Positions 16,867 through 35,004 of a stretch of 64,000 nt of DNA are shown one piece after another. Made by a program: the position numbers and the translations under genes. The stretch spans positions 277,090-341,089 of IMG/VR virus record IMGVR_UViG_3300046787_000200; one strand, written 5' to 3'. Below the pieces are notes generated by a model. That model saw nothing but the letters and a program-made list of their open reading frames with translations. It ran no database searches and had not been told where the DNA came from. The DNA is from a virus. How positions within the stretch are numbered: the stretch's first letter is position 1; the number at the start of each line of letters is the position of its first letter.

Positions 16867-17736
16867 TTATTTCTTCGCTACTGATTTTATAATATTTCTA
16901 ATTTCTTCTGTTGAAATGAAAATAGGTTGAGAATTAACTTTTTCTAATTTTTGAACAATATCATTATCTTTACCACAATGATGTATTGTTCGTATTATCA
17001 TATTTTTTACATTTATATCTACTGAAGGTTGTACACTTAATATTAGTCCTAATTTCATCTTAGATAGACTAGGACTATATTTTTCAATAGATTCATGTTT
17101 ATATTTCTTTGCCGTTTGTCTGTCAAATGTACTTGCAACAATATTAATTTTTTCTGCGTCTACTAGAGGTCTTGATCCAATAAAAGTATCAATAAATAAA
17201 TCCAAACTTCCGTTAACTACATCAGTCAGACCTGTAATGCTATTCTTATAAGGTATAATTTGATAAGATATTTTTAGCTCCTTAAACAAATTTTCTATCA
17301 GAAAGGTACCAGATGATGACGGTGACCCGATATTAATTGCACCTTCTTTTAAATCATCTAATGATTTATATTTTCCATTTTTACCTACAATTACCAATGG
17401 AGTAGAATTCATATACGTAATTGGATTAATATCATCTACCAAATCAACATTCGGAAATTTACCTAATACATTCAATCCGAAATTCCCTAAAAGAATATTG
17501 GTCATGTTATCAGTGTCTTGTGAATTCTGTAACGCTTTAATTGCAACTAAACCTTCGGCTCCGGGCTTGAAGTCTTTCAATACTGAAATACCTTGTTGTT
17601 TCAAACAAGGGGAATATGTTTCTAGTACTACATCAGATCCAGATCCTGGGCCACTAGATAGAATAAATTTATAGGTGTGTGTTTGGGCATTTGCTATGCC
17701 AAATGTTAATAATAGTAATGCTAATAGTTTTTTCAT
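16867..17736 (-). CDS. Bug/TctC-type periplasmic solute-binding protein (289 aa)
   Basis: The ATG at 17736 (not the TTG one codon earlier) gives the signal peptide MKKLLALLLLTFGIANAQ and stands 5 bases after a perfect TATAAATA box. The mature part has Bug-family features: SGPGSGSDVVLE near the start, the PGAEGLVAIKAL turn, TYMNSTPLVIVGKNG and INIGSPSSSGTFL in the ligand pocket. Such proteins bind carboxylates in the periplasm for tripartite tricarboxylate or other uptake. No transporter subunits are encoded here, so it would have to use host membrane partners, or act as a ligand trap or virion protein. A second family member is at 19788. Confidence 0.8.
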   Translation of the reverse strand: MKKLLALLLLTFGIANAQTHTYKFILSSGPGSGSDVVLETYSPCLKQQGISVLKDFKPGAEGLVAIKALQNSQDTDNMTNILLGNFGLNVLGKFPNVDLVDDINPITYMNSTPLVIVGKNGKYKSLDDLKEGAINIGSPSSSGTFLIENLFKELKISYQIIPYKNSITGLTDVVNGSLDLFIDTFIGSRPLVDAEKINIVASTFDRQTAKKYKHESIEKYSPSLSKMKLGLILSVQPSVDINVKNMIIRTIHHCGKDNDIVQKLEKVNSQPIFISTEEIRNIIKSVAKK

Positions 17737-17741
17737 CAAAC

Positions 17742-19787: not shown

Positions 19788-20762
19788 TTATTCCTTACTT
19801 AAATCTATCTTACTTAGTACAGGAATAAAGGCTGCTCGTAATTCATCCATATGCTTCTTTAGTCCTGCAGGATTTAATTCATCTTCAGCATAGAAAATAA
19901 CATTAGCATCAGTATATTCTTTATATTCTGCACTACGAACTGCTTTACTAAATTGTTGTTGGTACCATTCAACAATATCTTTATTGGTTCCGGGTGGCAA
20001 TTGAATACTCCATGCGGCATATACATTGATACCCGGAGCTACATCACGCAACAATGGTACTTTGGGGAATTGCGGCATTTTTTGTGTACCGGTAAATCCG
20101 ATTGGTTTAACTTTACCTGCATCTACTAATGCTTTAGCGACAGCAATTGGCATGATACCAAACTCAGTACCAGTCTTACCATCAAAACTAGCTACACTTT
20201 GTACTGCTGGCTGCGGTCCATTAAATTTGATAGGCTTTACTGTGTCTTTGTTACCGTTACCTTTAGACATTAGATATTCAAATGCAGTACGATGTGCTCC
20301 GCCGCCTATAGCAATATTAATAGTTCTACCACTTTGGATATACTTGACAAACTCTTGGGGAGTATTGATTCCACTCTTTAGACTAGCAACCAATACTAAT
20401 GGACTCTTACCCATAGTTAATACGTCAACGAAACTGTCATAGTTATATTTCTTAATGTTCTTTTCCCAAATATCATTAGTTACATATGAACTCATATGAC
20501 TTGGTAAGTTGATAGTATGCCCATCATTTGTTGCTTCCAAGAATTTGTTGTTTGCAATTACAGAATCAGCACCCGGGATGTTTTGCACAACATACACAAA
20601 CTTTGGATTTGATTTCTGTACGATATCAGCTAGTTTTCTGAATGCCATTTCATTCCCTGCGCCTGGTGTATTACCTATGATAACAGTTACGGGTTTTGTT
20701 GGTTCCCATGCATGGGCTGTTATACTTAATGTTAATGCTAACAATGCTAAAAGTTTTTTCAT
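19788..20762 (-). CDS. Bug/TctC-type periplasmic solute-binding protein (324 aa)
   Basis: A classical signal peptide (MKKLLALLALTLSITAHA) precedes a full-length Bug-family protein with WEPTKPVTVIIGNTPGAGNE, NIPGADSVIANNKFLEA, INIAIGGGAHRTAFEYL and the domain-2 GFTGTQKMPQFPKVPLL signature. The length matches free-standing host Bug receptors (about 320 aa). It binds a small carboxylate or similar ligand in the periplasm by family knowledge. It overlaps the amidotransferase gene by 4 bases. Two different Bug proteins in one phage is unusual. Confidence 0.85.
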   Translation of the reverse strand: MKKLLALLALTLSITAHAWEPTKPVTVIIGNTPGAGNEMAFRKLADIVQKSNPKFVYVVQNIPGADSVIANNKFLEATNDGHTINLPSHMSSYVTNDIWEKNIKKYNYDSFVDVLTMGKSPLVLVASLKSGINTPQEFVKYIQSGRTINIAIGGGAHRTAFEYLMSKGNGNKDTVKPIKFNGPQPAVQSVASFDGKTGTEFGIMPIAVAKALVDAGKVKPIGFTGTQKMPQFPKVPLLRDVAPGINVYAAWSIQLPPGTNKDIVEWYQQQFSKAVRSAEYKEYTDANVIFYAEDELNPAGLKKHMDELRAAFIPVLSKIDLSKE

Positions 20763-21461: not shown

Positions 21462-22190
21462 ATGAACACTAAAATTTTTAATCTTTTACAGAAAAATTTG
21501 CAACTTGCGTTTAATTTACCCAAGTACTCAAAAATTATTATTGACGGGGATACTATTGTACAAGACTTGCCCTGGACACCCGCACGATATCGTAAATTCA
21601 AAGATACGGTTGAATCTGAGTTAAGCTTACCTTGTGATTATATAGGAACGCTAAGAGATATCACCAATGACCTAAGTGAACGATACATTCTACGTTTTTT
21701 TAGTGAGATATGGAAACCTAGAACCGGTGACTATGAGCATACTGGATGGGAGTTAGCTGAGGAAATAAACAAGCTTAATCCTGAAAAAGTATTAGATGTT
21801 GGATGTGGGTATCATCCATTTAAAGGCCGCATACAGAATATTATTGGTATTGATCCATACAATAACCAAGCTGATTATGAGGTTGACATACTTGAATATA
21901 AAGTTAAGCCTGAAAGCCACGATGTTATTATGGCTTTAGGTAGTATAAATTTCAATTCACGTGATGAGATTGAGTCCCGATTCAGTCACTGTATCAATCT
22001 TTTAAAGAAAGGTGGCAAGTTCTATCTACGTGCTAATCCAGGTATCCCGCACAAGACAGGACCGTATGTTGATATCTTCCCGTGGAGCTTTGAAGTTGTC
22101 AATGAGTTTGCTGAAAAATACAATCTTAAATTAGAGACATTCAAAAAAGATGCTAACGATAGATTGTATTTTGTGTATCAAAAATTATGA
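21462..22190 (+). CDS. Class I SAM methyltransferase (242 aa)
   Basis: Residues 1-95 form an all-alpha/basic leader, then motif I KVLDVGCGYHPF, the acidic IIGIDPYNN after strand 2, VIMALGSINF at strand 4 and INLLKKGGKFYLRANPG at strand 5. This is the canonical class I methyltransferase order. It would methylate a small molecule, protein or nucleic acid; no DNA-methylase NPPY/DPPY motif is seen. It is a lone plus-strand gene converging with the 171-aa gene (13-base overlap). No ribosome site or late box is evident upstream. Confidence 0.75.
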   Translation: MNTKIFNLLQKNLQLAFNLPKYSKIIIDGDTIVQDLPWTPARYRKFKDTVESELSLPCDYIGTLRDITNDLSERYILRFFSEIWKPRTGDYEHTGWELAEEINKLNPEKVLDVGCGYHPFKGRIQNIIGIDPYNNQADYEVDILEYKVKPESHDVIMALGSINFNSRDEIESRFSHCINLLKKGGKFYLRANPGIPHKTGPYVDIFPWSFEVVNEFAEKYNLKLETFKKDANDRLYFVYQKL

Positions 22191-22693
22191 GGATAATTAG
22201 CTGTATTCATAGCTAGCCATCTATAATACAGTTCACCATCCATATATGGAATTTCATATTTTTTTAATTGTTCTAATAACTTACCTTTGATAATATCAGA
22301 TAGTTCAATAGTATAATTAGAAAATCTATTATGAAATTCCATTTCTGTTTTTAAATTTTCTTTATAAAAATCTACATTAGGATAAATTATCCCTAATCTA
22401 GCAACACACCATTGAAGTAAATCTTCAGAATTCACATTTATGGTAATTGTTTTATATCTAGTATCAGTCATCACCGATTCAACATAATGTTGACAGCTAA
22501 TTGATTTGAAGTTTAATGATGCATTTTCTAACATTGTCGGTAAACTATTAAGATCCACGTGATTATTTTTTAACAATCTTCGTTGATTTATAAAACTGAT
22601 GGATCCTTTATGTGTTAATGATGCACCTTTGTTATCTATGACTGCGCTTACTATATCACCGCATGCACCGGGTATTGCTCTTATAATATACAT
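22178..22693 (-). CDS. P-loop-like phage protein (171 aa), paralogue of 23437 gene
   Basis: It begins MYIIRAIPGACGDIVSAVID, a phosphate-loop-like opening shared with the 200-aa gene at 23437 (ILYNAGSGGDMVSAVID). The C-terminal part ends with LLEQLKKYEIPYMDGELYYRWL, again parallel to the paralogue. These look like small relatives of the sulfotransferase/kinase superfamily. The ATG is 4 bases after a perfect TATAAATA box. Function unknown. Confidence 0.55.
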   Translation of the reverse strand: MYIIRAIPGACGDIVSAVIDNKGASLTHKGSISFINQRRLLKNNHVDLNSLPTMLENASLNFKSISCQHYVESVMTDTRYKTITINVNSEDLLQWCVARLGIIYPNVDFYKENLKTEMEFHNRFSNYTIELSDIIKGKLLEQLKKYEIPYMDGELYYRWLAMNTANYPHNF

Positions 22694-23360: not shown

Positions 23361-23434
23361 TGGCATACCCCCAAGGATTCGAACCTTGACCAGCGGTTTT
23401 GGAGACCGATATGCTGCCATTACACTAGGGATAC
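23361..23434 (-). tRNA. tRNA-Trp (CCA anticodon)
   Basis: Cloverleaf on the minus strand with acceptor GTATCCC pairing GGGGTAT, anticodon loop CTCCAAA (CCA), T-arm CAAGGTTCGAATCCTTG and an encoded 3' CCA. It is the only tRNA left of the main array and lies between the 200-aa gene and promoter P8. Confidence 0.9.
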
Positions 23435-23436
23435 AT

Positions 23437-24039
23437 TTATTCTACGGGTGGCAATTTACTGATAATAGTAGATAACCAATGTTGATATATATCATCATTT
23501 AAAGGTGTATCTATCCATTGCTGTAACACTGATATTAGTTTACCTTCTAATATATCTTTAAAATCAATAACTTTTATATTTTTAAATGTTTTTGCGAACC
23601 TGATTCGATTCGATCGGTCTGTATAATGCTCATCGCTAAAAACGGGATGATCCTTAGGAGATAACCATCTACATCTATCCATACACCATTTTGTATATTT
23701 GTATTCTGAATCGTCAATTACGATGATTTCAGAATCTAATAACTCTGCCCAGCGAATTACAGTGAAATCATGTCCAGTAGTTAATGATTTATATTTTTTT
23801 TCTAAGTTGATAAAAAGTTCTGACTTTTCAGTCTTCCCTGTTATTTGATTTAGTGTGACTAGTAAGTCATTACAATATAATCCTTGTTTATGGGAATTTA
23901 TTATATTCATTTTAAATAAAAATCGCTCGGATCTAGGAGTAGCAGTAACATCAATAGATGTTGCTCTATAGTCAGTAGAATCTATTACTGCACTGACCAT
24001 GTCTCCGCCCGAACCTGCATTATACAAAATAAAAATCAT
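23437..24039 (-). CDS. P-loop-like phage protein (200 aa), paralogue of 22178 gene
   Basis: It opens MIFILYNAGSGGDMVSAVID, the same start as the 171-aa gene, and ends with LISVLQQWIDTPLNDDIYQHWL, also parallel. An IIVIDDSEYKYTKW segment fits a central Rossmann strand. The ATG is 4 bases after TATAAATA and the gene ends 2 bases before tRNA-Trp. Probable member of the sulfotransferase-like P-loop group; substrate unknown. Confidence 0.55.
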   Translation of the reverse strand: MIFILYNAGSGGDMVSAVIDSTDYRATSIDVTATPRSERFLFKMNIINSHKQGLYCNDLLVTLNQITGKTEKSELFINLEKKYKSLTTGHDFTVIRWAELLDSEIIVIDDSEYKYTKWCMDRCRWLSPKDHPVFSDEHYTDRSNRIRFAKTFKNIKVIDFKDILEGKLISVLQQWIDTPLNDDIYQHWLSTIISKLPPVE

Positions 24040-24043
24040 TCAT

Positions 24044-24051
24044 TATTTATA
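24044..24051 (-). promoter_or_regulatory. Late promoter box TATAAATA, 4 nt from ATG
   Basis: Perfect late box overlapping the stop codon of the nucleosidase gene, ATGA then ATG. Expression would be leaderless. Confidence 0.65.
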
Positions 24052-24589
24052 CTAATGGAATGTTCAGTTCTTTTAATTTGTTAAGATAGTGTACTTGACC
24101 TTGACTAACAGTTGAACGCCAATCATTCAATGAATCTTCATTCGCACCATCGCTAACAAACTTATAACATAAAAATTCTATGTTATGTTTCTTACATACT
24201 TTTGCAATAGCATATGCTTCCATATCTACTAGATCAGCAGGGATAAGCAAGTTATTATCAGTGACAAAGTTATCTCCTGTACTGCATGTTAGTCCGTCAC
24301 CATTATCAATGATAATAGTATCTTCAAATGGTGTTTGACCTGGTTGACTGCCCAACTCACAACACATCATATCACGCTGTACAAACTTTGAAACTTGATG
24401 AAATCCTGACTTAACTGTGATTCCACCTGCAGTACCGAAGTTAATAACACGTTTTGGGTTATACTTAGTGATAAGTTCTGCCGCGGTCATTGCGGCATTG
24501 ACTTTACCCACACCAGTATAGAAGACCTTCATGCTGTAATGCATATCGGGTGCTTCGTCTTTAAGTGCGATAAGAATCAAATCATGCAT
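24047..24589 (-). CDS. Nucleosidase/phosphorylase-superfamily protein (180 aa)
   Basis: The PNP/UDP phosphorylase-fold motifs are present: TGVGKVNAAMTAAELI, KRVINFGTAGGI, VDMEAYAIAKVC with the substrate-binding Met-Glu, and FVSDGANED with the catalytic Asp. It is closest in pattern to MTA/SAH nucleosidases, which cleave adenine from methylthioadenosine or S-adenosylhomocysteine. At 180 aa it is shorter than the usual 230, mainly in the middle. It overlaps the omega gene by 8 bases. It may clear SAH made by the phage methyltransferases. Confidence 0.75.
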   Translation of the reverse strand: MHDLILIALKDEAPDMHYSMKVFYTGVGKVNAAMTAAELITKYNPKRVINFGTAGGITVKSGFHQVSKFVQRDMMCCELGSQPGQTPFEDTIIIDNGDGLTCSTGDNFVTDNNLLIPADLVDMEAYAIAKVCKKHNIEFLCYKFVSDGANEDSLNDWRSTVSQGQVHYLNKLKELNIPLV

Positions 24590-24803
24590 TTTTTCTAATG
24601 CGTTTTAGATATTCACGACCCACTAATCCCTGCTCAATTTCCATCAATGCAGTTACAGTTGGGCCTGCTTTAGTATTAAGTGTAGAACGATGTCCTCGCT
24701 TCAATTCTCGTACACGCTGTGCGGCAATAAGAACTAAATCAAATCGATTGCCAACGGCTAATGCGGCTTCTTCACTTGTATATCTTGCTCTGCTTTCAGT
24801 CAT
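24582..24803 (-). CDS. rpoZ-like: RNA polymerase omega subunit homologue (73 aa)
   Basis: The core VGNRFDLVLIAAQRVRELK, then VTALMEIEQGLVG, is the omega (RpoZ) signature from helix 2 to helix 4; the 73-aa length suits a trimmed omega. In bacteria omega assists assembly of beta-prime and is part of the ppGpp site. A phage copy could remodel host RNA polymerase during late transcription, in line with the two promoter classes seen here. AAAGGAAGAAA precedes the ATG. The gene overlaps the nucleosidase gene. Confidence 0.8.
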   Translation of the reverse strand: MTESRARYTSEEAALAVGNRFDLVLIAAQRVRELKRGHRSTLNTKAGPTVTALMEIEQGLVGREYLKRIRKNA

Positions 24804-24825
24804 TTTCTTCCTTTAAAAGTTAAAA

Positions 24826-25473
24826 TTAATCTAAGAATAATAAGTTATTGTTTTTAAAAACATCTCTCCAATAACCTGTTTTAGGTACAAGTGCCCATAG
24901 TTTGGTTTTCTCAAATACAATTAATGTTTTTGCGTTTCTATTTTGCCCTACTGCTAAAAGCACACCGGGGAAAATTTTTGCATAATCATCACCTATTAAT
25001 AAATCATCATCGGTTACATACTTAAGAATATCATGCTGTACTGATTCGTACACGTGAGATCCATCAATAAAAGTTAAATTAAATTTTTTATTCTTATTAT
25101 ATAATTCGCTTGATATAACTTGAAGATTTATATCATTATACATTTTATCACCAATGCAATATTTAAAGCCGGCTTGCCATCCTTGTTCTGTTACAATTTG
25201 ATTTATTTTTTCAAAATCACTATACTCAGTTGCATGACGCAGTGAAAACTTAAAATTTTTAAAATTTTCTGTATTAAGCGCAGTGAAGTTGTCAACCACT
25301 TCTAGTGAGACTGAATCTAACTTACCTCGATACAATGCAGTTGTTGAGAGTCCTAAAAAACAACCAATTTCAAGTATAGAGCCATTCTCGGGGACATATC
25401 CTGCCAAAGTATGAAGTATTGACAACTCTTTTTCATTCATCCATCCTGGTATATCTATATTGTATTTTTGCAT
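24826..25473 (-). CDS. Class I SAM methyltransferase (Methyltransf_24-like), 215 aa
   Basis: Motifs: SILEIGCFLGLSTTALYRG (motif I), SLEVVDNF after strand 2, LTFIDGSHVYESVQHDI and DDDLLIGDDYAK. The FIDGSHxYE segment is typical of Methyltransf_24/TylF-like enzymes that methylate sugars or small molecules. It lies between omega and the tRNA array. No ribosome site stronger than a weak AACAT is visible, and no clear late box. Substrate unknown. Confidence 0.75.
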   Translation of the reverse strand: MQKYNIDIPGWMNEKELSILHTLAGYVPENGSILEIGCFLGLSTTALYRGKLDSVSLEVVDNFTALNTENFKNFKFSLRHATEYSDFEKINQIVTEQGWQAGFKYCIGDKMYNDINLQVISSELYNKNKKFNLTFIDGSHVYESVQHDILKYVTDDDLLIGDDYAKIFPGVLLAVGQNRNAKTLIVFEKTKLWALVPKTGYWRDVFKNNNLLFLD

Positions 25474-25488
25474 ATTATGTTATAAGTT

Positions 25489-25564
25489 TGGAGCGGCTAA
25501 CGAGGCTCGAACTCGTGACCTATACCTTGGCAAGGTATCGCTCTACCAACTGAGCTACAGCCGC
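25489..25564 (-). tRNA. tRNA-Gly (GCC)
   Basis: Complete cloverleaf, anticodon loop TTGCCAA, T-arm ACGAGTTCGAGCCTCGT, encoded CCA; 76 bases. Confidence 0.95.
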
Positions 25565-25571
25565 ATTATTT

Positions 25572-25647
25572 TGGTACATCGTGACGGGCTCGAACCGCCG
25601 ACAGCCACCGTGTAAGGATGGAGCTCTACCAACTGAGCTAACGATGC
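25572..25647 (-). tRNA. tRNA-Val (TAC)
   Basis: Complete cloverleaf, anticodon loop CTTACAC, acceptor GCATCGT, encoded CCA; 76 bases. Only 7 bases from tRNA-Gly. Confidence 0.95.
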
Positions 25648-25657
25648 ATTATTCTAT

Positions 25658-25849
25658 TTAACCACCTTGAGTGGAATCTTTAATATCTGTGTCAATATCA
25701 AGTTCAACATTAGATGAATCAATGCGACTAGTGCCTGGAGCCGGTTGCTTGCCATCATCTACTTGATTTTTTCTAAAGATGTTGTCCCAGTTATTATCAA
25801 ACGTTTTTAAATTAACGCTGTATGGTCTAGGAGTACTACCCTTGCTCAC
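25658..25849 (-). CDS. Small phage protein (63 aa), GTG start
   Basis: The GTG at 25849 has GAGGAG 8 bases upstream and overlaps the stop of the 54-aa gene (GTGA). The product starts MSKGSTPRPYSVNLKTFDNN and contains WDNIFRKN, a pattern common to a small conserved phage family. Disordered C-terminus. Function unknown. Confidence 0.65.
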   Translation of the reverse strand: MSKGSTPRPYSVNLKTFDNNWDNIFRKNQVDDGKQPAPGTSRIDSSNVELDIDTDIKDSTQGG

Positions 25850-26010
25850 TTTTTGTCTCCTCGACTAGCCGAGCGTGAATTACTCTTTTCAATTTCTACA
25901 AAACTGCGAATGAATGCGCCACGCACATGTGCATCGGCAATAAGTGATGCCGCACGTTTAACTGTTTTAGACACTTTAACTGCCTTTGGATCATAACCTC
26001 TACAACTCAT
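25846..26010 (-). CDS. Small basic phage protein (54 aa)
   Basis: A 54-residue basic protein beginning MSCRGYDPKAVKVSKTVKR, with a helix RAASLIADAHVRGAF and a Ser/Arg-rich tail. GGAAATAAT precedes the ATG. It is coupled to the next gene by GTGA. Possibly nucleic-acid binding; not recognised. Confidence 0.6.
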   Translation of the reverse strand: MSCRGYDPKAVKVSKTVKRAASLIADAHVRGAFIRSFVEIEKSNSRSASRGDKK

Positions 26011-26032
26011 ATTATTTCCTTTTGTTTAAAAT

Positions 26033-26109
26033 TGGTCGGAGTACAAGGATTCGAACCTTGGACCCCCTGGTCCCAAACCAGGTGCGCTACCAGACTGCGC
26101 TACACTCCG
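26033..26109 (-). tRNA. tRNA-Pro (TGG)
   Basis: Complete cloverleaf, anticodon loop TTTGGGA, acceptor CGGAGT/ACTCCG, encoded CCA; 77 bases. A second Pro(TGG) is at 35005. Confidence 0.95.
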
Positions 26110-26116
26110 AATATAC

Positions 26117-26437
26117 TTACCAGTAGTACCAGTGAGGCTTGCGGCTCACACTGGGGTAATCAATGATATCTAAATCATTAATATCTACTTTTAATACATT
26201 TTTCTCCCACTGACGACCTTTTGCTCGTTGTGGTTGATTCATCATTTCACGTATCCACCACATAGGTGTACTCATCCAATGATGTTCTGTATCAACATTC
26301 TTTTTCTTTTTAGTTAGTACCCCGGGATATTGCAAGTAATCAATATACTTACGACCACCGACGAAGTAATACTTATAATCCCATTGTTCCTCAGGATATC
26401 TGAGTTTACTGGGAAGGTCTTTATACGTCCTAGACAT
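26117..26437 (-). CDS. Conserved-type phage protein (106 aa)
   Basis: The opening MSRTYKDLPSKLRYPEEQW, the middle HHWMSTPMWWIREMMN and the ending SRKPHWYYW form a signature I recognise from many phage hypotheticals. The protein is basic and Trp/Tyr-rich. It stands alone between tRNA-Pro and tRNA-Met. Function unknown. Confidence 0.7.
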   Translation of the reverse strand: MSRTYKDLPSKLRYPEEQWDYKYYFVGGRKYIDYLQYPGVLTKKKKNVDTEHHWMSTPMWWIREMMNQPQRAKGRQWEKNVLKVDINDLDIIDYPSVSRKPHWYYW

Positions 26438-26486
26438 GATGTTCTCCTTATCTAAAATCGCATATTGACCTCTCTTTCTTTATGTT

Positions 26487-26560
26487 TGGATGCGGGTGAC
26501 AGATTCGAACTGCCGATGCTCCTGGCTTATGAGACCGAAGTGGTGACCAACCCTACCCGC
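26487..26560 (-). tRNA. tRNA-Met (CAT)
   Basis: Anticodon loop CTCATAA, acceptor GCGGGTA, T-arm CAGTTCGAATCTG, encoded CCA; 74 bases. The anticodon stem contains mismatches. CAT could also be Ile2 if the C is lysidinylated; tRNA at 29324 is the better Ile2 candidate. Confidence 0.85.
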
Positions 26561-26838
26561 GTAATTTATAAATGTATTTCTTTTTCACTTATAGAGCCGG
26601 TCTTATCAGCCGGGTATGAAACACACTTATAAAGTGAGACTGCTACTTACACCACATAAGCCCAATCTCTGAGTAGTTACCCTGTCCACGTGTTTATTTC
26701 TTTTAGCGGCAGTTAGCGTTCTGCACTTTGTGATTTCTCAAACAGCCCTAAAGAGGCCTTTGCGGTAGATCCAATGCACCGTGCTTTTAAGGTGTTGCAA
26801 TTACCTAACTCTATTACGCTAAGTTAACGCGGGTTTAT
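26561..26838. other. Non-coding structured spacer
   Basis: This 278-base spacer holds no supported reading frame. It contains the hairpin-family element at 26568-26630 and a CCGG-loop-CCGG stem in its loop. The rest is hairpin-prone and of higher GC than the flanking genes. It is probably transcribed from the right as part of the tRNA precursor. Confidence 0.6.
26568..26630. repeat. Hairpin-family element 1
   Basis: Arms ATAAATGTATTTC (26568-26580) and GAAACACACTTAT (26618-26630) pair over 13 bp with two G-U pairs; loop 37 bases. Shares the AAACACAC core with the other copies, here in the right arm. Confidence 0.6.
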
Positions 26839-26912
26839 TGGTGGAGGATGGGAGAATCGAACTCCCACGAAAACCTTGCAAAGGTCCCAGGCTCCCATTA
26901 CATCAATCCCCC
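26839..26912 (-). tRNA. tRNA-Ala (TGC)
   Basis: Acceptor GGGGGAT/ATCCTCC, anticodon loop TTTGCAA, encoded CCA; 74 bases. Its 5' ten bases overlap the last codons and stop of the HNH gene, so the tRNA 5' end is inside a coding region. Confidence 0.9.
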
Positions 26913-27457
26913 GAATTATATTTCTTGTCCCATGCTTCTATACGGTTAAGTAATTGTTCATAGGACATTGTATTATTCTTGCCTTTAGATACATTTTTTC
27001 CGTGTTGCATCAAAACACAATTTGCCGGATGAGCTAAATGCTCTGATGGCAAATTATTATCATAACCATATCTCACACTAACTGCATGGTCTCTACTAAC
27101 ACCAGACAGATTGTTACCTCTGTTCTTTGGCTTGTACCAACCGTAGCTTTCGATCAATGTAAAATCAAACTCATCAGGGAAATCCGATAAGTTAAACGTA
27201 AACGCACAATCTGCTCTATAATTTACAAGAGCAGACCTATGTTTTCTTACTTCAGAATAATCTCTAGGCTTCATTTCCTGTGCGACTTTTCCGGCGTCTG
27301 AGAGACTCCTAGAAGTGAACAAGTTCAAGGTTCTAGCCTTAGCTATGGTCTTTCCACTCATTACATATTTCTTACATAAGTCTCGGGTTGATAAGCCAGC
27401 ATCGTAGTCAGATTGTATCTGGCTCCATAGCATATCAGTGATAAAAATTCGTTTCAT
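26903..27457 (-). CDS. HNH-family nuclease in the tRNA array (184 aa)
   Basis: The ATG at 27457 lies 5 bases after GATAAATA and is preferred over an upstream GTG. The N-terminal part has a helix-turn-helix (SDYDAGLSTRDLCKKYVMSG). The C-terminal part shows an HNH-like SRDHAVSVRYG, a LAHPANCVLMQH segment and a closing Asn/Lys-rich KNVSKGKNN, where His, Asn and His/Asn can bind metal. A free-standing homing or host-DNA nuclease is possible. It sits between tRNA genes and overlaps tRNA-Ala. Confidence 0.65.
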   Translation of the reverse strand: MKRIFITDMLWSQIQSDYDAGLSTRDLCKKYVMSGKTIAKARTLNLFTSRSLSDAGKVAQEMKPRDYSEVRKHRSALVNYRADCAFTFNLSDFPDEFDFTLIESYGWYKPKNRGNNLSGVSRDHAVSVRYGYDNNLPSEHLAHPANCVLMQHGKNVSKGKNNTMSYEQLLNRIEAWDKKYNSGD

Positions 27458-27462
27458 ACTCT

Positions 27463-27470
27463 TATTTATC
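27463..27470 (-). promoter_or_regulatory. Late-type box GATAAATA, 5 nt from ATG
   Basis: GATAAATA followed by AGAGT and the HNH gene ATG. Same geometry as the perfect boxes. Confidence 0.55.
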
Positions 27471-27500
27471 ACCGGCTATTCAACTGCTCTCCCAAAGCTT

Positions 27501-27585
27501 TGGTGCGGATGGTGAGACTCGAACTCACACACCTTTCGGCGACGGCTTCTAAGACCGTTGCGGCTACCAATTACGCCACATCCGC
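27501..27585 (-). tRNA. tRNA-Leu (TAG)
   Basis: Class II cloverleaf with variable arm CGCCGAAAGGTG, anticodon loop CTTAGAA, encoded CCA; 85 bases. First tRNA behind the promoter at 27611-27639. Confidence 0.95.
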
Positions 27586-27591
27586 ATTAAA

Positions 27592-27604
27592 CTTTTAAAG
27601 AACA
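27592..27604 (-). promoter_or_regulatory. boxA-like antitermination site 1
   Basis: Minus strand TGTTCTTTAAAAG, close to the rrn boxA consensus (GCTCTTTAACA). It lies between the promoter and tRNA-Leu. Two other tRNA transcripts have the same element. Confidence 0.55.
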
Positions 27605-27610
27605 AGTAGT

Positions 27611-27639
27611 ATTATAACAGAGAACTATTTATCTGTCTA
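27611..27639 (-). promoter_or_regulatory. Sigma70 promoter for tRNA block
   Basis: Minus strand TAGACA-17-TATAAT, with the boxA-like site immediately downstream and tRNA-Leu(TAG) next. It matches the early promoter family except for one -35 base. Confidence 0.75.
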
Positions 27640-27655
27640 CAATATTTGGGTAATT

Positions 27656-27729
27656 TGGAGCGGGGTAAGAGAATCGAACTCTCCGCATCAGCTTGGAAGG
27701 CTGAGGTATTACCACTATACGAACCCCGC
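27656..27729 (-). tRNA. tRNA-Gly (TCC)
   Basis: Anticodon loop CTTCCAA, acceptor GCGGGGT, encoded CCA; 74 bases. With Gly(GCC) it covers all glycine codons. Confidence 0.95.
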
Positions 27730-27737
27730 ATGTATTC

Positions 27738-27814
27738 TGGAGTAGGTGACAGGACTTGAACCTGCATAAGACGGATTTGCAATCCGTAGCCTGACCATTC
27801 AGCGACACACCTAC
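27738..27814 (-). tRNA. tRNA-Cys (GCA)
   Basis: Acceptor GTAGGTG/CACCTAC, anticodon loop TTGCAAA in a perfect stem, encoded CCA; 77 bases. Confidence 0.9.
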
Positions 27815-28144
27815 ATAAAAGCATATATAAACACACCTTACCTAGCATTATCAGTGCAAGCCTTGCAGGAACCGGCTTATAGACTATCTAGGTTTCACAG
27901 ATTCCACGATGGGTGTGTTTATATATGCTCTGCATCCCCCGGCGGTAATTGTAGTAAATCTTTAACAAGCCACGTTCTCGCATGACTGAGAAACTAGCAT
28001 CATTATGTTTACCTTCCACCCGCTTCCCGACAGGGACCGTTCTCGCATTGCTAGCGGCCTTTTGGTAAGAAGACTACCACCCTTAGTTATCACACTACTT
28101 CTCATCGTACGGGTCATACTATCTGTTGATTAGACAGAACGTTC
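27815..28144. other. Non-coding structured spacer
   Basis: No supported gene in 330 bases. It contains hairpin-family element 2 with an inner ACCTAG/CTAGGT stem and an AAGCC/GGCTT stem, then an 11-base direct repeat CGTTCTCGCAT (near 27973 and 28038) and a TCTGT/ACAGA stem before tRNA-Ser. GC is higher than in flanking protein genes. It is presumably part of the tRNA precursor RNA. Confidence 0.65.
27821..27928. repeat. Hairpin-family element 2
   Basis: Perfect 17-bp arms GCATATATAAACACACC (27821-27837) and its complement (27912-27928); 74-base loop with further nested stems. Confidence 0.85.
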
Positions 28145-28232
28145 TGGTGGAGAGTGTGGGATTCGAACCCACGCACCCATTGCTGAATGACAGATTAGCA
28201 ATCTGTTGGTTTAACCACTCACCCAACTCTCC
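28145..28232 (-). tRNA. tRNA-Ser (GCT)
   Basis: Class II cloverleaf, anticodon loop TTGCTAA in a perfect stem, variable arm present, encoded CCA; 88 bases. Confidence 0.95.
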
Positions 28233-28658
28233 AAATCTTATTATACTGAAACACACTACCAACCACCAAAGAGGGTGATTTCGTTTGAGTCAACAAAAAG
28301 AAATAATGTGTTTTAGTATAATGGAGCACTGAGAATACATGCTTACCGAGTAACACCTCAGACATTATTGTAAACCTTGCGAGCCTACTTTCTTCTGATT
28401 TCCACTAAGCCCTGCTTTTACACAGTAACCTAGTCTGTTACCAACATCGCCGTTTTAAGTCAGGCATTAGACTTGACATTGTATGCTATTCTACGCTTTC
28501 TACTCCGTTGACCTTTAGAGCCATTCACTACCGCTAAGTAGTTACGAAACTTCCTGCATAAACTGTTTTCACCTTGCGAGTTACGACAGACTTGATTGTG
28601 TTGCCACTCAAGTATTAGATGCTTTTCACATACAACCGAGACAGACTTTGCATTTTTA
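28233..28658. other. Non-coding structured spacer
   Basis: No supported gene in about 425 bases. It starts with hairpin-family element 3, then contains stems GTAAC/GTTAC (28425-28441) and AAGTC/GACTT (28457-28474) and ends with the left arm of the helix that encloses the Lys-like tRNA. The C/T-rich plus strand and higher GC are unlike coding neighbours. Confidence 0.65.
28241..28321. repeat. Hairpin-family element 3
   Basis: Arms TTATACTGAAACACA (28241-28255) and TGTGTTTTAGTATAA (28307-28321): 15 bp with one G-U pair; 51-base loop. Confidence 0.8.
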
Positions 28659-28753
28659 TAAGATAGTAGGAGTTGAACCTACAGCCTATTCCTTAAAAGG
28701 GAATCACTCTACCATTGAGTTATATCAACCTACTGTGATGTGCTGTCTCAGTT
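28634..28753 (-). other. tRNA-Lys-like element inside an extended helix
   Basis: A Lys-type anticodon arm (loop CTTTTAA in a 5-bp stem), D-stem ACTC/GAGT and T-arm GTAGGTTCAACTCCTAC lie at 28659-28729. The first three acceptor pairs are broken and no CCA is encoded, unlike the good tRNAs here. Outside it, AACCGAGACAG (28634-28644) and CTGTCTCAGTT (28743-28753) form an 11-bp helix with one G-U pair. The element may be a degenerate tRNA held as an RNA domain; a functional tRNA-Lys(TTT) exists at 37652. Confidence 0.6.
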
Positions 28754-29197
28754 GCTTCATAATCTTTTGGACTACAAAATACAACACGCCACGTACCTTT
28801 TGTCTCGCGGACTACTCAGTCGTTTTTTGCGATTAATGTTGCCCCGCCGGTTTCCCGACAACACCATCAACCACTCAAACTGCATACGAACTCTTAGGTG
28901 CGACCCCTCGAATCAATACACTACCCTTTCTCATACCAGTTAACTGGGCTGGTTTTGTTGTGAGGTCAGCACCACCTGTTACTCTCTGTCTGCCTGTCTT
29001 ACCCTCACGGGAACATAAACAAACATTCTTTCCACAACTCCCAGCGTCACTGTTATCACCACCCGTCTTATAGATGATGACTGCCTCACGGCAGTGAGCA
29101 GGCTTGCTTAGATGAACTATTACTAGCGCGGGTCTGTAGGAGACGACCGCTTTGGGCATATCACTATGCTTATTCTAATGAGGCTAAGCCCCCAAAA
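28754..29197. other. Non-coding structured spacer
   Basis: About 440 bases with no credible protein gene; reading frames here have Cys/Arg/Thr-rich composition and no ribosome sites. A perfect ACTGCC-TCAC-GGCAGT hairpin lies at 29080-29095 and other short stems occur. The plus strand is C/T-rich. Candidate non-coding RNA domain of the tRNA transcript. Confidence 0.6.
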
Positions 29198-29313
29198 TTC
29201 TTATACAAATACACATTCACAGGAATCGAACCTGCCGACCTCGCTCTATACAGGGCGATGCTATATCCACTATATCAGCGTGTACGGCGCTTTTATGTGT
29301 ATGTGTATAAGAA
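29198..29313 (-). other. tRNA-like element enclosed by 19-bp inverted repeat
   Basis: Arms 29198-29216 and 29295-29313 pair over 18 of 19 bases. The 78-base loop carries a tRNA-like T-arm (GCAGGTTCGATTCCTGT on the minus strand), a TACACG/TGTGTA acceptor-like stem and a degenerate anticodon arm containing CTGTATA. The anticodon stem has a bulge, the D-arm is poor and no CCA is encoded. It looks like a tRNA captured into a larger hairpin; a real tRNA-Tyr is at 30181. Confidence 0.6.
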
Positions 29314-29323
29314 CTATACAAAA

Positions 29324-29400
29324 TGGTGCCTCGAACTGGACTCGAACCAGTAACCTAACGATTATGAGTCGTGTGCTCTAACCAATTGAGCTATCAAGGC
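29324..29400 (-). tRNA. tRNA (CAT), probably Ile2
   Basis: Anticodon arm ACGACTCATAATCGT, the following bases and T-arm resemble bacterial tRNA-Ile2, whose CAT is converted to lysidine-AT and reads AUA. Encoded CCA; 77 bases. Met is the alternative. Confidence 0.85.
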
Positions 29401-29404
29401 AATT

Positions 29405-29490
29405 TGGTGCGACTGGCCGGACTCGAACCGGCACGCTATTACGGCGAGAGATTTTAAGTCTCTTGTGGCTACCAATTACACCACAGTCGC
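29405..29490 (-). tRNA. tRNA-Leu (TAA)
   Basis: Class II cloverleaf, anticodon loop CTTAAAA in a perfect AGAGA/TCTCT stem, encoded CCA; 86 bases. First tRNA behind promoter P9. Confidence 0.95.
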
Positions 29491-29508
29491 AAAAACTTTT
29501 TCAACTAA

Positions 29509-29522
29509 CTTTTTAAAGAACA
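29509..29522 (-). promoter_or_regulatory. boxA-like antitermination site 2
   Basis: Minus strand TGTTCTTTAAAAAG between promoter P9 and tRNA-Leu(TAA); resembles betaproteobacterial rrn leader boxA. Confidence 0.6.
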
Positions 29523-29528
29523 AGTTGT

Positions 29529-29557
29529 ATTATATATCAAAAACTATTTATTGTCAA
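29529..29557 (-). promoter_or_regulatory. Early sigma70 promoter P9 (perfect hexamers)
   Basis: Minus strand TTGACA, 17-base spacer with AATAAATAG, TATAAT. It drives tRNA-Leu(TAA) and the array to its left. Confidence 0.9.
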
Positions 29558-29872
29558 ATGAATTTGTAAGTAGTTCTCCCATAGTTATAAGAACCATTCA
29601 CCCGTTTATACAAGACCGGTCGGGACTCGGTACGTCACTTGGGATACTAATCCAGTTAGCAACCAATCTGCACCGATCTTCCGATCGGTCGGGAGTTGAA
29701 CCCGTCCCCTTCTACTATATCAGTTGTTCGAACAAACCTTTATAGCGTGACATTCTCTTGCTGACACTTACAAAACTTTTTGTGTATAAGCATGACCAAA
29801 CCTGCTACTTATACTTCAGACACCTTACCTTGATGCGTGGCGTTGTGGTCAACCCATGTGTCTTACTAAACT
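29558..29872. other. Non-coding structured spacer with T-arm-like remnant
   Basis: No supported gene in 315 bases. It contains a perfect CCGATC-TTCC-GATCGG hairpin (29673-29688; GGAA loop on the minus strand), a duplicated CGGTCGGGA motif, and a T-arm-like segment ACGGGTTCAACTCCCG. The latter may be the end of a decayed tRNA. It lies between promoter P9 and tRNA-Asp and must be transcribed from further right. Confidence 0.55.
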
Positions 29873-29949
29873 TGGCGCACCGTAGGGGACTCGAACCCCT
29901 GGCCTCCACAGTGACAGTGTGGCGATCTAACCAACTGAGCTAACGGTGC
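29873..29949 (-). tRNA. tRNA-Asp (GTC)
   Basis: Anticodon loop CTGTCAC in a perfect CCACA/TGTGG stem, acceptor GCACCGT/ACGGTGC, encoded CCA; 77 bases. Confidence 0.95.
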
Positions 29950-30180
29950 AAAAACTTTGATTGACTACTTACACTTTCGGCCGTCAATCAAGGCAATGAA
30001 TTTCTGAGTCGCATTTGATTACACGGCATATACGCCCGTCCGTGACGTTACGGTTGTTAATTTACCTGCAGGACGCATTAACAACTATCTTACATTTCTG
30101 CCGGGCGTGATTTACAAGGTTATCCCCGACCCCCTTGACTGACCCTCTTGTCAGCGTGTGCCGCTTGTTACAGCAGTTCT
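29950..30180. other. Non-coding structured spacer with two 9-bp perfect stems
   Basis: No gene. Perfect stems TTGATTGAC/GTCAATCAA (29957-29965, 29983-29991) and GTTGTTAAT/ATTAACAAC (30053-30061, 30077-30085) plus CTGAC/GTCAG (30139-30154) lie in series in 231 bases. This density is far above that of the protein-coding regions and suggests a structured RNA. Confidence 0.7.
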
Positions 30181-30265
30181 TGGTGGAGATGGTAAGATTC
30201 GAACCTACTCACCCGAAAGAATTGATTTACAGTCAACCGCGCCTCGCCGTCTGCGCCGCATCTCC
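30181..30265 (-). tRNA. tRNA-Tyr (GTA)
   Basis: Class II cloverleaf with variable arm, anticodon loop CTGTAAA in a TTGA/TCAA stem, acceptor GGAGATG, encoded CCA; 85 bases. Confidence 0.95.
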
Positions 30266-30657
30266 AAAAACTATTCTGAAACACACTATCCTCTCTACCC
30301 ATGTACCTTGGGACAGGCTTTTACTGTGCGAAATGTGTTTTAGAATAATACAGTAATACACGGCGTTAAACTGTCGGCCTATGCCCGCTTAACTTCTGTA
30401 CTGTAACAGCTCTTTCCGCTAACAACACTTTTCCTACCCCTACTGGACCGACTTTGCTTATCGTTCGTCACATTGGTCACGGTGCGCTTTCGCGGTGCGT
30501 GTATGTGAAGCCCGGGAAGTCTCTCCCGGGTCGGTTTCCATCTACTCATCTTACTAAGTGTTGTCTTAGTATCTTGACGCAATCGGAACAGTACTCCGAT
30601 ATCTACACTAAGGTACCCTAGTGTCGTTCTTATCTAGTATTGAACTATGCGAATTTT
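30266..30657. other. Non-coding structured spacer with serial hairpins
   Basis: No supported gene in 392 bases. After hairpin-family element 4 come perfect stems CCCGGGA/TCCCGGG (30511-30530), ACTAAG/CTTAGT (30553-30570), TCGGA/TCCGA (30583-30599) and ACACTA/TAGTGT (30605-30624). Such a run of hairpins between tRNA-Tyr and tRNA-Glu indicates a folded non-coding RNA. Confidence 0.7.
30272..30347. repeat. Hairpin-family element 4
   Basis: Arms TATTCTGAAACACA (30272-30285) and TGTGTTTTAGAATA (30334-30347): 14 bp with one G-U pair; 48-base loop. Confidence 0.8.
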
Positions 30658-30732
30658 TGGAAGAGCCACGGGGAATCGAACCCCGCTTCTCAGGATGAAA
30701 ACCTGATGTCCTAACCGATAGACGATGGCTCC
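30658..30732 (-). tRNA. tRNA-Glu (TTC)
   Basis: Anticodon loop TTTTCAT in a CAGG/CCTG stem, acceptor GGAGCCA/TGGCTCT, encoded CCA; 75 bases. A second Glu(TTC) is at 36224. Confidence 0.95.
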
Positions 30733-30734
30733 AT

Positions 30735-30952
30735 CTATATGTAAACACACTATGGGAACTACACTTCTAATATAAGACCGTCTCTTATATTTTCAGTTTT
30801 GTCATTACTGCCTAACTACCCGTCACGTTCAACATTGCGCTACGCACTTTGTTCATACGCTTCTTGCACTCTATGAAACCCAGTTTCGTCCACTGGCTGA
30901 TTTCAATAGAGTACCTAACGGATCAGGTAACCTTTAATATGTTTGCATATAG
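30735..30952. repeat. Hairpin-family element 5
   Basis: Arms CTATATGTAAACACA (30735-30749) and TATGTTTGCATATAG (30938-30952): 15 bp with two G-U pairs; long 188-base loop. Confidence 0.65.
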
Positions 30953-30988
30953 TCTCCTGAACTTAACAGGAGCTATATGAAAAATTAA

Positions 30989-31001
30989 CTTTTTAAAGAA
31001 C
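30989..31001 (-). promoter_or_regulatory. boxA-like antitermination site 3
   Basis: Minus strand GTTCTTTAAAAAG downstream of promoter P10 in the leader of the tRNA-Glu transcript. Confidence 0.55.
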
Positions 31002-31028
31002 GTTGTTGATTTCTCAACTCATGCTATG

Positions 31029-31057
31029 ATTGTAGCACAATTTTGATTTATTGTCAA
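31029..31057 (-). promoter_or_regulatory. Early sigma70 promoter P10
   Basis: Minus strand TTGACA-17-TACAAT with spacer ATAAATCAAAATTG. It drives the tRNA-Glu block through boxA-like site 3. Confidence 0.85.
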
Positions 31058-31112
31058 ATTCTTTTTTTGTATCTCTGTTTCCCAAGAACTTCTTCAATCA
31101 ATCTAAGTATCT

Positions 31113-31141
31113 ATTGTAGCACCAAGTTGATTTATTGTCAA
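31113..31141 (-). promoter_or_regulatory. Early sigma70 promoter P11
   Basis: Minus strand TTGACA-17-TACAAT with spacer ATAAATCAACTTGG, 84 bases upstream of P10, giving a tandem promoter pair for the same tRNA block. Confidence 0.85.
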
Positions 31142-31148
31142 CCTATTC

Positions 31149-31156
31149 GATAAATA
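31149..31156 (+). promoter_or_regulatory. Late-type box GATAAATA, 5 nt from ATG
   Basis: GATAAATA, then ATCAA, then ATG at 31162. It is divergent to P11 and drives the frameshifted oxygenase gene. Confidence 0.55.
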
Positions 31157-31161
31157 ATCAA

Positions 31162-31754
31162 ATGATGATACCAATTAACTTGCCCAAACCATCAAACAGG
31201 ACCATGGCATACATCAACTATTTCACGCAACAGAATTTACAAAAAAAATTGAATAATTCTAAAGAATGGTTCAACACTACTCAAAGACAAAAAATAAACT
31301 GTGCCTCAGGCTATTTAGTCCCTGACAAGATTATAACATCATTGTCACATGAGGAATATGTCATTTTTTTCCTGATGAAAATTTTGATATATCGATTGGT
31401 ATATTACAAAATGTTTCTATCAACGAACCGGTAGCCTTTGTTCCTCCACATATCGATCGGGGTAGAACCCTTGGCTTAATGTTTATTGTTGAAACAGGTG
31501 GTATTAACACAACTACTACATTTTATAAAACGCCACATGATGAATACACTCCGCAACAAACAGTTATGGTAGATTACAATGATTTAGAATCTGTATATTC
31601 GATTAAAACATTGAAGGATCAATGGTACCTCATTGACGTTCAACAATTTCATAGTGTAGGAAATATTGAAACGCATCGTATATTATACAGTATAAATTTC
31701 TATGGAATTACTTATTCTAATTTCAAAGAAAAATATAAAAACTATATAATATAG
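31162..31754 (+). pseudogene. 2OG-Fe(II) oxygenase-like gene with frameshift at T7 tract
   Basis: The frame from 31162 runs to EEYVIFF at the T7 tract (31364-31370) and then loses homology-like character. Adding one T restores a single 197-codon frame through 31754: it continues PDENFDISIG, gains HID (PPHIDRGR), and ends with a QQFHSVGNIETHR distal His/Arg segment. That is a complete oxygenase triad. The gene is either broken, read by slippage, or mis-assembled by one base in the homopolymer. Confidence 0.7.
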
Positions 31755-31756
31755 TT

Positions 31757-31831
31757 TGGTCCGGGGTGCAGGAATCGAACCCACATTCATCGGGTAGAAG
31801 CCGATTGTATTATCCATTATACTAACCCCAG
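31757..31831 (-). tRNA. tRNA-Arg (TCT)
   Basis: Anticodon loop CTTCTAC, acceptor CTGGGGT/ACCCCGG, encoded CCA; 75 bases. Reads AGA/AGG. Promoter P12 lies just upstream. Confidence 0.95.
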
Positions 31832-31852
31832 ATAAATTTCTAACTTGCCTCT

Positions 31853-31881
31853 ATTATAGTGTATTGTTGATTTATTGTCAA
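31853..31881 (-). promoter_or_regulatory. Early sigma70 promoter P12 (perfect hexamers)
   Basis: Minus strand TTGACA-17-TATAAT with spacer ATAAATCAACAATAC. It is 22 bases from tRNA-Arg(TCT). Confidence 0.9.
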
Positions 31882-31893
31882 CAATTATTTTAT

Positions 31894-31969
31894 TGGCTCC
31901 CCTACGTGGGCTCGAACCACGGACATTTTGATTAACAGTCAAACGCTCTACCGACTGAGCTATAGGAGA
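31894..31969 (-). tRNA. tRNA-Asn (GTT)
   Basis: Anticodon loop CTGTTAA in a TTTGA/TCAAA stem, acceptor TCTCCTA, encoded CCA; 76 bases. Confidence 0.95.
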
Positions 31970-31976
31970 ATAAATT

Positions 31977-32056
31977 TGGGGCAGGGTTCAAACCTACCGC
32001 ATTACATACCTTTATCGTTGTAACTCTGCACTATGTTATAGCCATTGTGTGCCTGC
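31977..32056 (-). other. Degenerate tRNA-like remnant
   Basis: An 80-base stretch ends with an encoded CCA and a T-arm-like GTAGGTTTGAACCCTGC, but the acceptor stem and a proper anticodon arm are missing. It lies in tandem between tRNA-Asn and tRNA-Thr, so a decayed tRNA gene is likely. Confidence 0.45.
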
Positions 32057-32063
32057 ATTTTCT

Positions 32064-32138
32064 TGGTGCCCCAGGTTAGAATCGAACTAACTACCTATCG
32101 CTTACAAGGCGAGTGCTCTACCAGTGAGCTACAAGGGC
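32064..32138 (-). tRNA. tRNA-Thr (TGT)
   Basis: Anticodon loop CTTGTAA in a TCGC/GCGA stem, encoded CCA; 75 bases. One acceptor mismatch. A second Thr(TGT) is at 36708. Confidence 0.9.
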
Positions 32139-32158
32139 TTTGTCTTTTATTTAACTGA

Positions 32159-32187
32159 AGTATATCACAACAAAACTTTTTTGTCAA
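32159..32187 (-). promoter_or_regulatory. Early sigma70 promoter for tRNA-Thr/Asn
   Basis: Minus strand TTGACA-17-TATACT, 20 bases upstream of tRNA-Thr(TGT). Confidence 0.7.
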
Positions 32188-32206
32188 GCCTCATTGTGAT
32201 ATCTTT

Positions 32207-32767
32207 CTAGCTTAGGAGAATTCTACTATGCTTGGGAACACCTGCTAACAAATATTCCATTTGATCTGCAAGAATAGTTCTATGTTGTAAAATCATATTT
32301 TCATAATGATTCGGTACATACGGTGCGTACAGCAATTCCATACGTGCTTCTTTCAAAGTCTTGTGACCCTTCTTACTGTTACATTCTTTGCAAGCAGTAA
32401 CTACGTTCATCCAGGTGTTTTCACCACCTTTACTCTTTGGATGAATGTGGTCACGACTTAAGTTATTGTAATTCGCAAAGTGCTCACCGCAATATGCACA
32501 TACATGCCTATCACGACCAAACAATGTTCTGTTGGTAAGTGCAACACATGAATGTTTATATGGATTGAATCCGTGACCTTTAATAGCGATAATGCTAGAA
32601 GTTTCTAAGTAACTTTCGCTACCGTCATTCTGTACACCACCACGATATCTAGCCACAACTTCACCCATTGACCATGCGATGGCATCTTTGGCTTTGTAGG
32701 TAATTGCGTCATCATATGAGATCCATTGTCTTGGAACTCCCGAGATATCTAGTGCTAGAACAGCCAT
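32207..32767 (-). CDS. HNH endonuclease (186 aa)
   Basis: A canonical HNH module lies at about residues 95-145: two zinc-knuckle pairs CAYC and CKEC flank LSRDHIHPKSKGGENTW and NVVTACKECNSKKG. The HNH metal-binding His/Asn are in place. The N-terminal 85 residues form a separate sheet domain. It would make double-strand breaks or nicks in DNA, possibly as a free-standing homing enzyme in the tRNA array or as a packaging-associated nuclease. A weak GGAG site precedes the start. Confidence 0.85.
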   Translation of the reverse strand: MAVLALDISGVPRQWISYDDAITYKAKDAIAWSMGEVVARYRGGVQNDGSESYLETSSIIAIKGHGFNPYKHSCVALTNRTLFGRDRHVCAYCGEHFANYNNLSRDHIHPKSKGGENTWMNVVTACKECNSKKGHKTLKEARMELLYAPYVPNHYENMILQHRTILADQMEYLLAGVPKHSRILLS

Positions 32768-32816
32768 GGTGTACTCCTTTTCTTGCTATTGTCACTAATT
32801 GTATTTAATGTCCTAT

Positions 32817-32891
32817 TGGCGGGTCCTGCAGGAATTGAACCCACATCCCGAAGTTCGAAGCATCGTATTCTATCCATTGAACTAAGGACCC
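32817..32891 (-). tRNA. tRNA-Arg (TCG)
   Basis: Anticodon loop CTTCGAA, acceptor GGGTCCT/AGGACCC, encoded CCA; 75 bases. Its 5' end overlaps the stop codon of the 329-aa gene. Confidence 0.9.
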
Positions 32892-33871: not shown

Positions 33872-34133
33872 TGTCTATAATTTCAATATTAGGAGAAGTA
33901 ATTCCTAAATTAGCAGTTTCTGTTAATATAAATTGCTTAAATTCTTCTGCCGCGGCTTGATCTAACCAATACCGTTTAGTTGTAACATCATCTATTACAT
34001 CATATAAACCATTGGTCTTGTCGGTTGCTACTGCATTAGATATAAAATCCATTCTATCTTCATTCAAACTATCATGTCCAACTTGTGATTCTAGCGAGTC
34101 CCATTTAATTATTGTGGCTTTAGTCCAAACCAT
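33861..34133 (-). CDS. Small phage protein with DQAAAEE motif (90 aa)
   Basis: A 90-residue protein sharing the RYWLDQAAAEEFKQF motif with the 100-aa gene at 35801 (RYWSDQAAAEEWETY), so the two are paralogues. A third related small protein is at 40116. An ACTAAATA box lies 20 bases before the ATG with a GGAGAAA ribosome site. Function unknown; it may partner the sulfotransferase-like gene it overlaps. Confidence 0.6.
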   Translation of the reverse strand: MVWTKATIIKWDSLESQVGHDSLNEDRMDFISNAVATDKTNGLYDVIDDVTTKRYWLDQAAAEEFKQFILTETANLGITSPNIEIIDNVE

Positions 34134-34153
34134 ATATTTCTCCTATGCAAACA

Positions 34154-34161
34154 TATTTAGT
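34154..34161 (-). promoter_or_regulatory. Late-type box ACTAAATA with 20-nt leader
   Basis: ACTAAATA followed by a short leader with GGAG before the 90-aa gene ATG. Confidence 0.4.
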
Positions 34162-34185
34162 TACAGTGGTTCAACGATAATTATT

Positions 34186-34261
34186 TGGTGCCAACGAATG
34201 GGATCGAACCATTGACGCACAGATTTTCAGTCTGTCGCTCTACCATCTGAGCTACATCGGC
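34186..34261 (-). tRNA. tRNA-Phe (GAA)
   Basis: Anticodon loop CTGAAAA in an ACAGA/TCTGT stem, acceptor GCCGATG, encoded CCA; 76 bases. It abuts the FkbM gene end. Confidence 0.95.
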
Positions 34262-34882: not shown

Positions 34883-34887
34883 TATAA

Positions 34888-34895
34888 TATTTAAT
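34888..34895 (-). promoter_or_regulatory. Late-type box ATTAAATA, 5 nt from ATG
   Basis: ATTAAATA, TTATA, ATG of the FkbM gene. Weaker match but identical spacing. Confidence 0.45.
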
Positions 34896-34923
34896 AACAT
34901 TAAAGTGTTATATAAATTATTTA

Positions 34924-34998: not shown

Positions 34999-35004
34999 TA
35001 AAAT

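Follow-up and report, generated by a model that had tools for sequence, protein, structure and literature searches.

An RNA polymerase omega homologue with apparently altered ppGpp Site 1 features in large T4-like phages

Of the core subunits of RNA polymerase, omega is the least understood, and its ppGpp site is the second, weaker one. An omega-like gene in a phage genome raises the question of what a phage might gain by encoding this subunit, and whether its version could form that site at all. We addressed this question for an open reading frame in a 64,000-nucleotide stretch of viral DNA (positions 277,090 to 341,089 of IMG/VR record IMGVR_UViG_3300046787_000200), which we call the window. 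The window comes from a 352,012-base record (G000) of a very large, freshwater-type, T4-like phage that encodes T4-like gp43, gp44, gp46, and gp47 as well as a class I ribonucleotide reductase.

We compared the predicted protein (MTESRARYTSEEAALAVGNRFDLVLIAAQRVRELKRGHRSTLNTKAGPTVTALMEIEQGLVGREYLKRIRKNA) with family models, known structures, and phage protein families. It matched PF01192 with an E value of 1.8e-11 and 44.3 bits (Pfam cut-off 26) and the rpoZ equivalog model TIGR00690 with an E value of 6.3e-9 and 35.8 bits (NCBIfam cut-off 23.6), and in a phmmer search of the PDB, omega chains made up the best 23 of 24 matches, with E. coli omega at 4.5e-10. A search of PHROGs assigned it to no family (best E value 0.2). 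The AF2 model has a mean pLDDT of 81.6, with values below 50 for residues 1 to 6. The top Foldseek matches of this model were all omega, and VIA-align superposed it on omega with a Z score of about 10 over 67 residues at 39% identity, placing R7 of the model on R3 of E. coli omega. The phage protein contains the omega core block, NRF.L...A..R.R and ALxEI, whose residues contact beta-prime in omega. The first-pass annotation had called the frame an omega homologue; a structural match to omega was found, and the identification as a genuine omega (RpoZ) homologue holds. Compared with bacterial RpoZ of the Burkholderiales type, the phage protein has the same fold, length class, and core residues (R16, F17, R26, R28, A50, L51, and E53), but phage omegas carry an extended N-terminus in place of the terminal M-A-R, Met, Gln, or Glu in place of Arg52, and Gly in place of Lys45.

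The coordinates of the gene and its neighbors are listed in Table 1. We placed the start codon upstream of the N-terminal extension because the ribosome-binding site AAAGGAAG is located there, and the same start is kept in relatives. The omega gene overlaps the nucleosidase-like gene by 8 bp, and the two are probably translationally coupled; the Methyltransf_24 gene is probably on the same transcript as omega. Among the loci compared, the nucleosidase-like neighbor is common mostly to the nearest relatives, whereas most omega loci of relatives share the small upstream frames (at 25658 and 25846) and a downstream metallophosphatase. Two mutually similar proteins of no known family (window positions 22178-22693 and 23437-24039, minus strand) also recur near omega in relatives. 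In addition, the window encodes two tripartite tricarboxylate transporter receptor (TctC) proteins (19788-20762 and 16867-17739, minus strand); in several relatives, homologues of the first lie next to omega. We rejected a host assignment based on the TctC protein; its best plasmid matches are from Burkholderiales, but at <30% identity they are too weak.

Table 1. Positions of the omega gene, its sequence features, and its neighbors in the window
Feature	Position	Strand	Remarks
Phage omega (RpoZ) gene	24582..24803	-	73 aa, ATG start; HMM, PDB, and fold matches
Ribosome-binding site of omega gene	24807..24814	-	Just upstream of ATG
Codons M-T-E-S-R of N-terminal extension	24789..24803	-	Precede A6-R7 (equivalent to E. 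coli A2-R3)
Codon of Met54	24642..24644	-	Equivalent of E. coli omega Arg52, by alignment
Nucleosidase-like gene (downstream)	24047..24589	-	PNP_UDP_1; best NCBIfam model PRK05634, below its cut-off
Methyltransf_24 gene (upstream)	24826..25473	-	22 bp before omega, same strand

We quantified how widespread such genes are. A single-sequence search detected omega relatives at 95 IMG/VR places, the best 80 of which are 72 to 99% identical, and alignment-based searches raised this number to 273 and then 409. The omega-bearing records range from 102 to 524 kb, with one or two copies each. A 364 kb record that we retrieved through its DNA polymerase alone also carries omega, and no omega was found in three shorter fragments (95 to 139 kb) that were either retrieved likewise or included for comparison. 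Examples of phages with two copies are the record containing L003:376-606 and L003:4992-5213, the second of which belongs to a divergent type and has Leu at position 52, and G002 (524,565 bases), with copies at 115 kb and 426 kb. In INPHARED there were only nine omega matches. The annotated match that was inspected, in 'Acinetobacter phage MD-2021a', lies in a gmk-rpoZ-spoT locus of the usual host kind, and one match is a 4.4 kb unverified clone. Three INPHARED entries classed as phage, CAKLQH020000003.1, AFYI01000003.1, and AGRM01000003.1, of which only the first was inspected, look like pieces of bacterial chromosomes with the host rpoZ. The earlier statement that few phages carry omega is therefore accurate for catalogued phages (INPHARED) but not for uncultured large phages, in which omega is common (about 400 IMG/VR places). 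Among pattern matches in bacterial genomes (85k species), no phage-type omega was confirmed. No phage omega was described in the open-access literature that we searched, although absence there is not proof of novelty, and the main text of the open-access huge-phage papers examined does not mention omega or rpoZ.

The gene could be a recently captured host omega, or a contaminating host fragment, that has no function in the phage. In a tree built with the trait columns removed, the phage omegas form one clade apart from bacteria (support 100/99), and this clade joins the Burkholderiales side (support 100/89), although the tree rests on a short alignment and leaves many forks poorly supported. 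Burkholderiales omegas are the nearest bacterial ones, which would fit a capture, as would the host fragment catalogued under MD-2021a. The single phage clade, its occurrence on hundreds of contigs, and a median pairwise dN/dS of 0.14, which indicates that the phage omegas are under purifying selection, contradict this explanation. Furthermore, the gene sits among phage-type genes and tRNAs in a phage genome, whereas bacterial rpoZ sits beside gmk and spoT. Overall, we consider capture or contamination very improbable.

An omega subunit acts within a core polymerase, and we searched the phage records for one. Beta-prime and beta models (PF04997 and PF00562) had no match in G000, whereas both matched in 14/14 control genomes; this search is Pfam-based and could miss phage subunits that are split and very divergent. 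Beta-prime was likewise not found in 12 related records. Because G000 has no detectable beta or beta-prime, omega has no known access to a core polymerase other than the host's, and we rejected the idea that omega serves a multisubunit polymerase of the phage itself, like the nvRNAP or vRNAP of jumbo phages. A gp55-type late sigma is encoded at G000:18026-18940 (phrog_12791, 2.3e-73), and gp55 is present in 9 of the 17 records checked. The presence of gp55 and the lack of beta and beta-prime are consistent with remodeling of the host RNA polymerase by the phage omega. The late boxes that the first-pass annotation had invoked did not stand up: the late-promoter motif TATAAATA occurs 12 times in the window compared to 12.4 expected, with none just upstream of the omega gene. 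We therefore rejected late-promoter control of omega, even though a late sigma is encoded elsewhere in the record. The window also contains a cluster of 34 tRNA genes with small open reading frames between them (23361-38031, minus strand) and, at 41143-42582 (minus strand), a gene whose 479 aa product weakly matches QueC-like queuosine biosynthesis (E value 0.0003).

Crystal structures from 2013 reportedly identify Arg52 as the other omega contact in ppGpp Site 1, besides the N-terminus. E. coli Site 1 is situated between omega and beta-prime. The phosphates of ppGpp are coordinated there by residues 2 to 5 of omega, and polymerase with omega delta2-5 binds ppGpp with a Kd of >100 uM compared to 6.1 uM (PMC7676912). 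An N-terminal MAR motif is a mark of omega in the alpha, beta, gamma, and delta proteobacteria (PMC9462843). We examined both features in 61 distinct close phage omegas, a set biased to near relatives of the window protein, and in 155 distinct Pseudomonadota omegas. All 155 Pseudomonadota omegas have two residues before R3, starting M-A/S-R. Six residues precede the R3 equivalent in 58 of the 61 phage omegas and none has fewer, corresponding to at least four extra residues; one of the 61 is a divergent second copy with Asp at the R3 equivalent. The window omega has no terminal MAR, and its R3 equivalent, R7, sits behind four extra residues. Position 52 is Arg in 150 and Lys in 5 of the Pseudomonadota omegas, but in the phage set it is Met (26), Gln (17), Glu (17), or Leu (1) and never Arg or Lys (0/61); the window protein has Met54 where the proteobacterial Site 1 omegas have Arg or Lys.

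Judged from sequence, then, both Site 1 features are altered in the close phage omegas, and the earlier suggestion that the omega-dependent ppGpp site is removed gains support at this level from the displaced N-terminus and the loss of Arg or Lys at position 52. The predicted outcome, loss of Site 1, is the same as in E. coli Site 1 mutants with omega delta2-5 or with RNA polymerase lacking omega (PMC7676912). However, omega delta2-5 is a laboratory mutant from which the N-terminus was deleted, whereas the phage omega is natural and selected, and its N-terminus has been added to.

The best explanation of these features, and one we hold with modest confidence, is a replacement omega that acts on the host core and disables ppGpp Site 1. 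The phage omega would bind beta-prime of the host core in the infected cell, either by competing with host omega or by entering core as it is newly assembled. The residues that face the core are kept, while the extra residues would displace the N-terminus that forms Site 1 and the Arg52 equivalent is Met, Gln, or Glu. Polymerase containing the phage omega would then have little or no ppGpp binding left at Site 1, and a rise in ppGpp caused by infection or nutrient exhaustion would damp transcription with host sigma and the gp55-type late sigma less. In this way the host polymerase may become partly deaf to the starvation signal. Host core binding, loss of ppGpp binding, and benefit in infection are what we infer, and the extra Arg5 of the extension could in principle rebuild a phosphate contact. 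The possible size of the effect is limited, because in E. coli Site 1 is weaker than Site 2, the other ppGpp site, and Site 2 would be left untouched; in E. coli the Site 1 effect is modest and the Site 2 (DksA) effect is larger (PMC7676912).

The main rival is a plain replacement omega that stabilizes the host core or helps it fold during host shut-off, with ppGpp-site features that are dispensable to a lytic phage and have therefore drifted. Omega is described as a beta-prime chaperone in the abstract of PMC5811629, and conservation of the core residues would suit such a role. We extended the comparison to a wider family of 101 distinct phage omegas, one of them without its N-terminus. In this family A50, L51, E53, G57, and R26 are invariant and R16 is present in 100/101, yet position 52 varies inside this block, with residues that include M, Q, E, L, A, and K. 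Such variety is what relaxed constraint would produce; a single position that differs amid invariant neighbors fits it less well. The extension is itself conserved: S4, R5, R7, and Y8 are kept in >=90% of 25 phage omegas, the N-terminus reading MTESRARYT or MSQSRARYT, and gain of a fixed N-terminus is not an obvious result of drift. Conservation of the extension and the invariance around position 52 thus appear to speak against pure decay of the ppGpp site, and we regard a stabilizing omega with a decayed site as a serious but rather unlikely alternative.

A conserved extension at one end of omega, in a phage that encodes gp55, could also be a new docking surface that contacts a phage protein or the gp55 holoenzyme and steers promoter choice, with loss of ppGpp binding as a side effect. 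We found no candidate partner, the extension is modeled at low pLDDT, and gp55 is also encoded alongside omegas that lack the extension (records G295 and G302); this explanation seems to us improbable.

We then asked how the two Site 1 features are distributed across the wider family. Among the more distant phage omegas, those that begin with the canonical MA[RK] have R52 in 14/14 cases, compared to R in 3/86 and K in 6/86 of those with other starts. A naive Fisher test of start type against residue 52 gives p = 1.5e-14 but ignores kinship; on the tree there are only three supported independent pairs in which the MAR start and R52 change together (median p 0.5), and significance is out of reach with so few. 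Because some phage omegas retain both MAR and R52, loss of Site 1 is not required by all of these phages.

We also looked for alarmone enzymes in omega-bearing records. PF13328 (HD_4) proteins scored above the cut-off in 8 of 37 such records, and those tested match SpoT/RelA hydrolase domains and MESH1, which makes them probable small alarmone hydrolases. One 229 kb record has a SpoT-like HD protein close to a MAR-type omega, and the HD_4 protein of the 364 kb sister (G287) falls below the Pfam cut-off and is closest to a (p)ppApp hydrolase. The HD_4 proteins are L478, L477, L479, L480, L481, L482, L483, L476, and L484 in G294, G300, G296, G310, G293, G311, G308, G297, and G287, respectively. 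No RelA/SpoT or SpoT-like HD enzyme was found in G000, the record of the window. We rejected the idea that an omega with an intact site goes with a hydrolase and an omega with a lost site goes without, given that hydrolases accompany both kinds of omega. Their presence hints that alarmones may matter to omega-bearing phages. A small alarmone hydrolase has been proposed in Pseudomonas phage Adele (PMC12846349); such enzymes would likewise blunt alarmone signaling, but by destroying the signal rather than the receptor. More tentatively, and with somewhat less confidence than we place in the replacement omega itself, we suggest that widespread large T4-like phages swap host omega for a ppGpp-blind one, so that the polymerase under gp55 would ignore Site 1, and that related phages add alarmone hydrolases, the two together forming a family-wide counter to alarmone signaling or alarmone-based defense.

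Remodeling of the host RNA polymerase by T4 through gp55, gp33, RpbA, and Alt/Mod similarly places phage parts on a host core, and gp55 is common to both systems. Here, however, the phage supplies a core subunit itself; T4 is not known to encode an omega homologue. If a ppGpp-blind replacement omega is the correct explanation, a core subunit would join the known routes by which phages take over RNA polymerase, and phage omegas would provide ready-made ppGpp-blind omegas as tools. Phages that had removed Site 1 but kept omega would constitute a natural experiment indicating that Site 1 matters during infection. In a 235 kb record (G295), two proteins that by eye resemble fatty acid desaturases adjoin a MAR-type phage omega (L354:260-1791).
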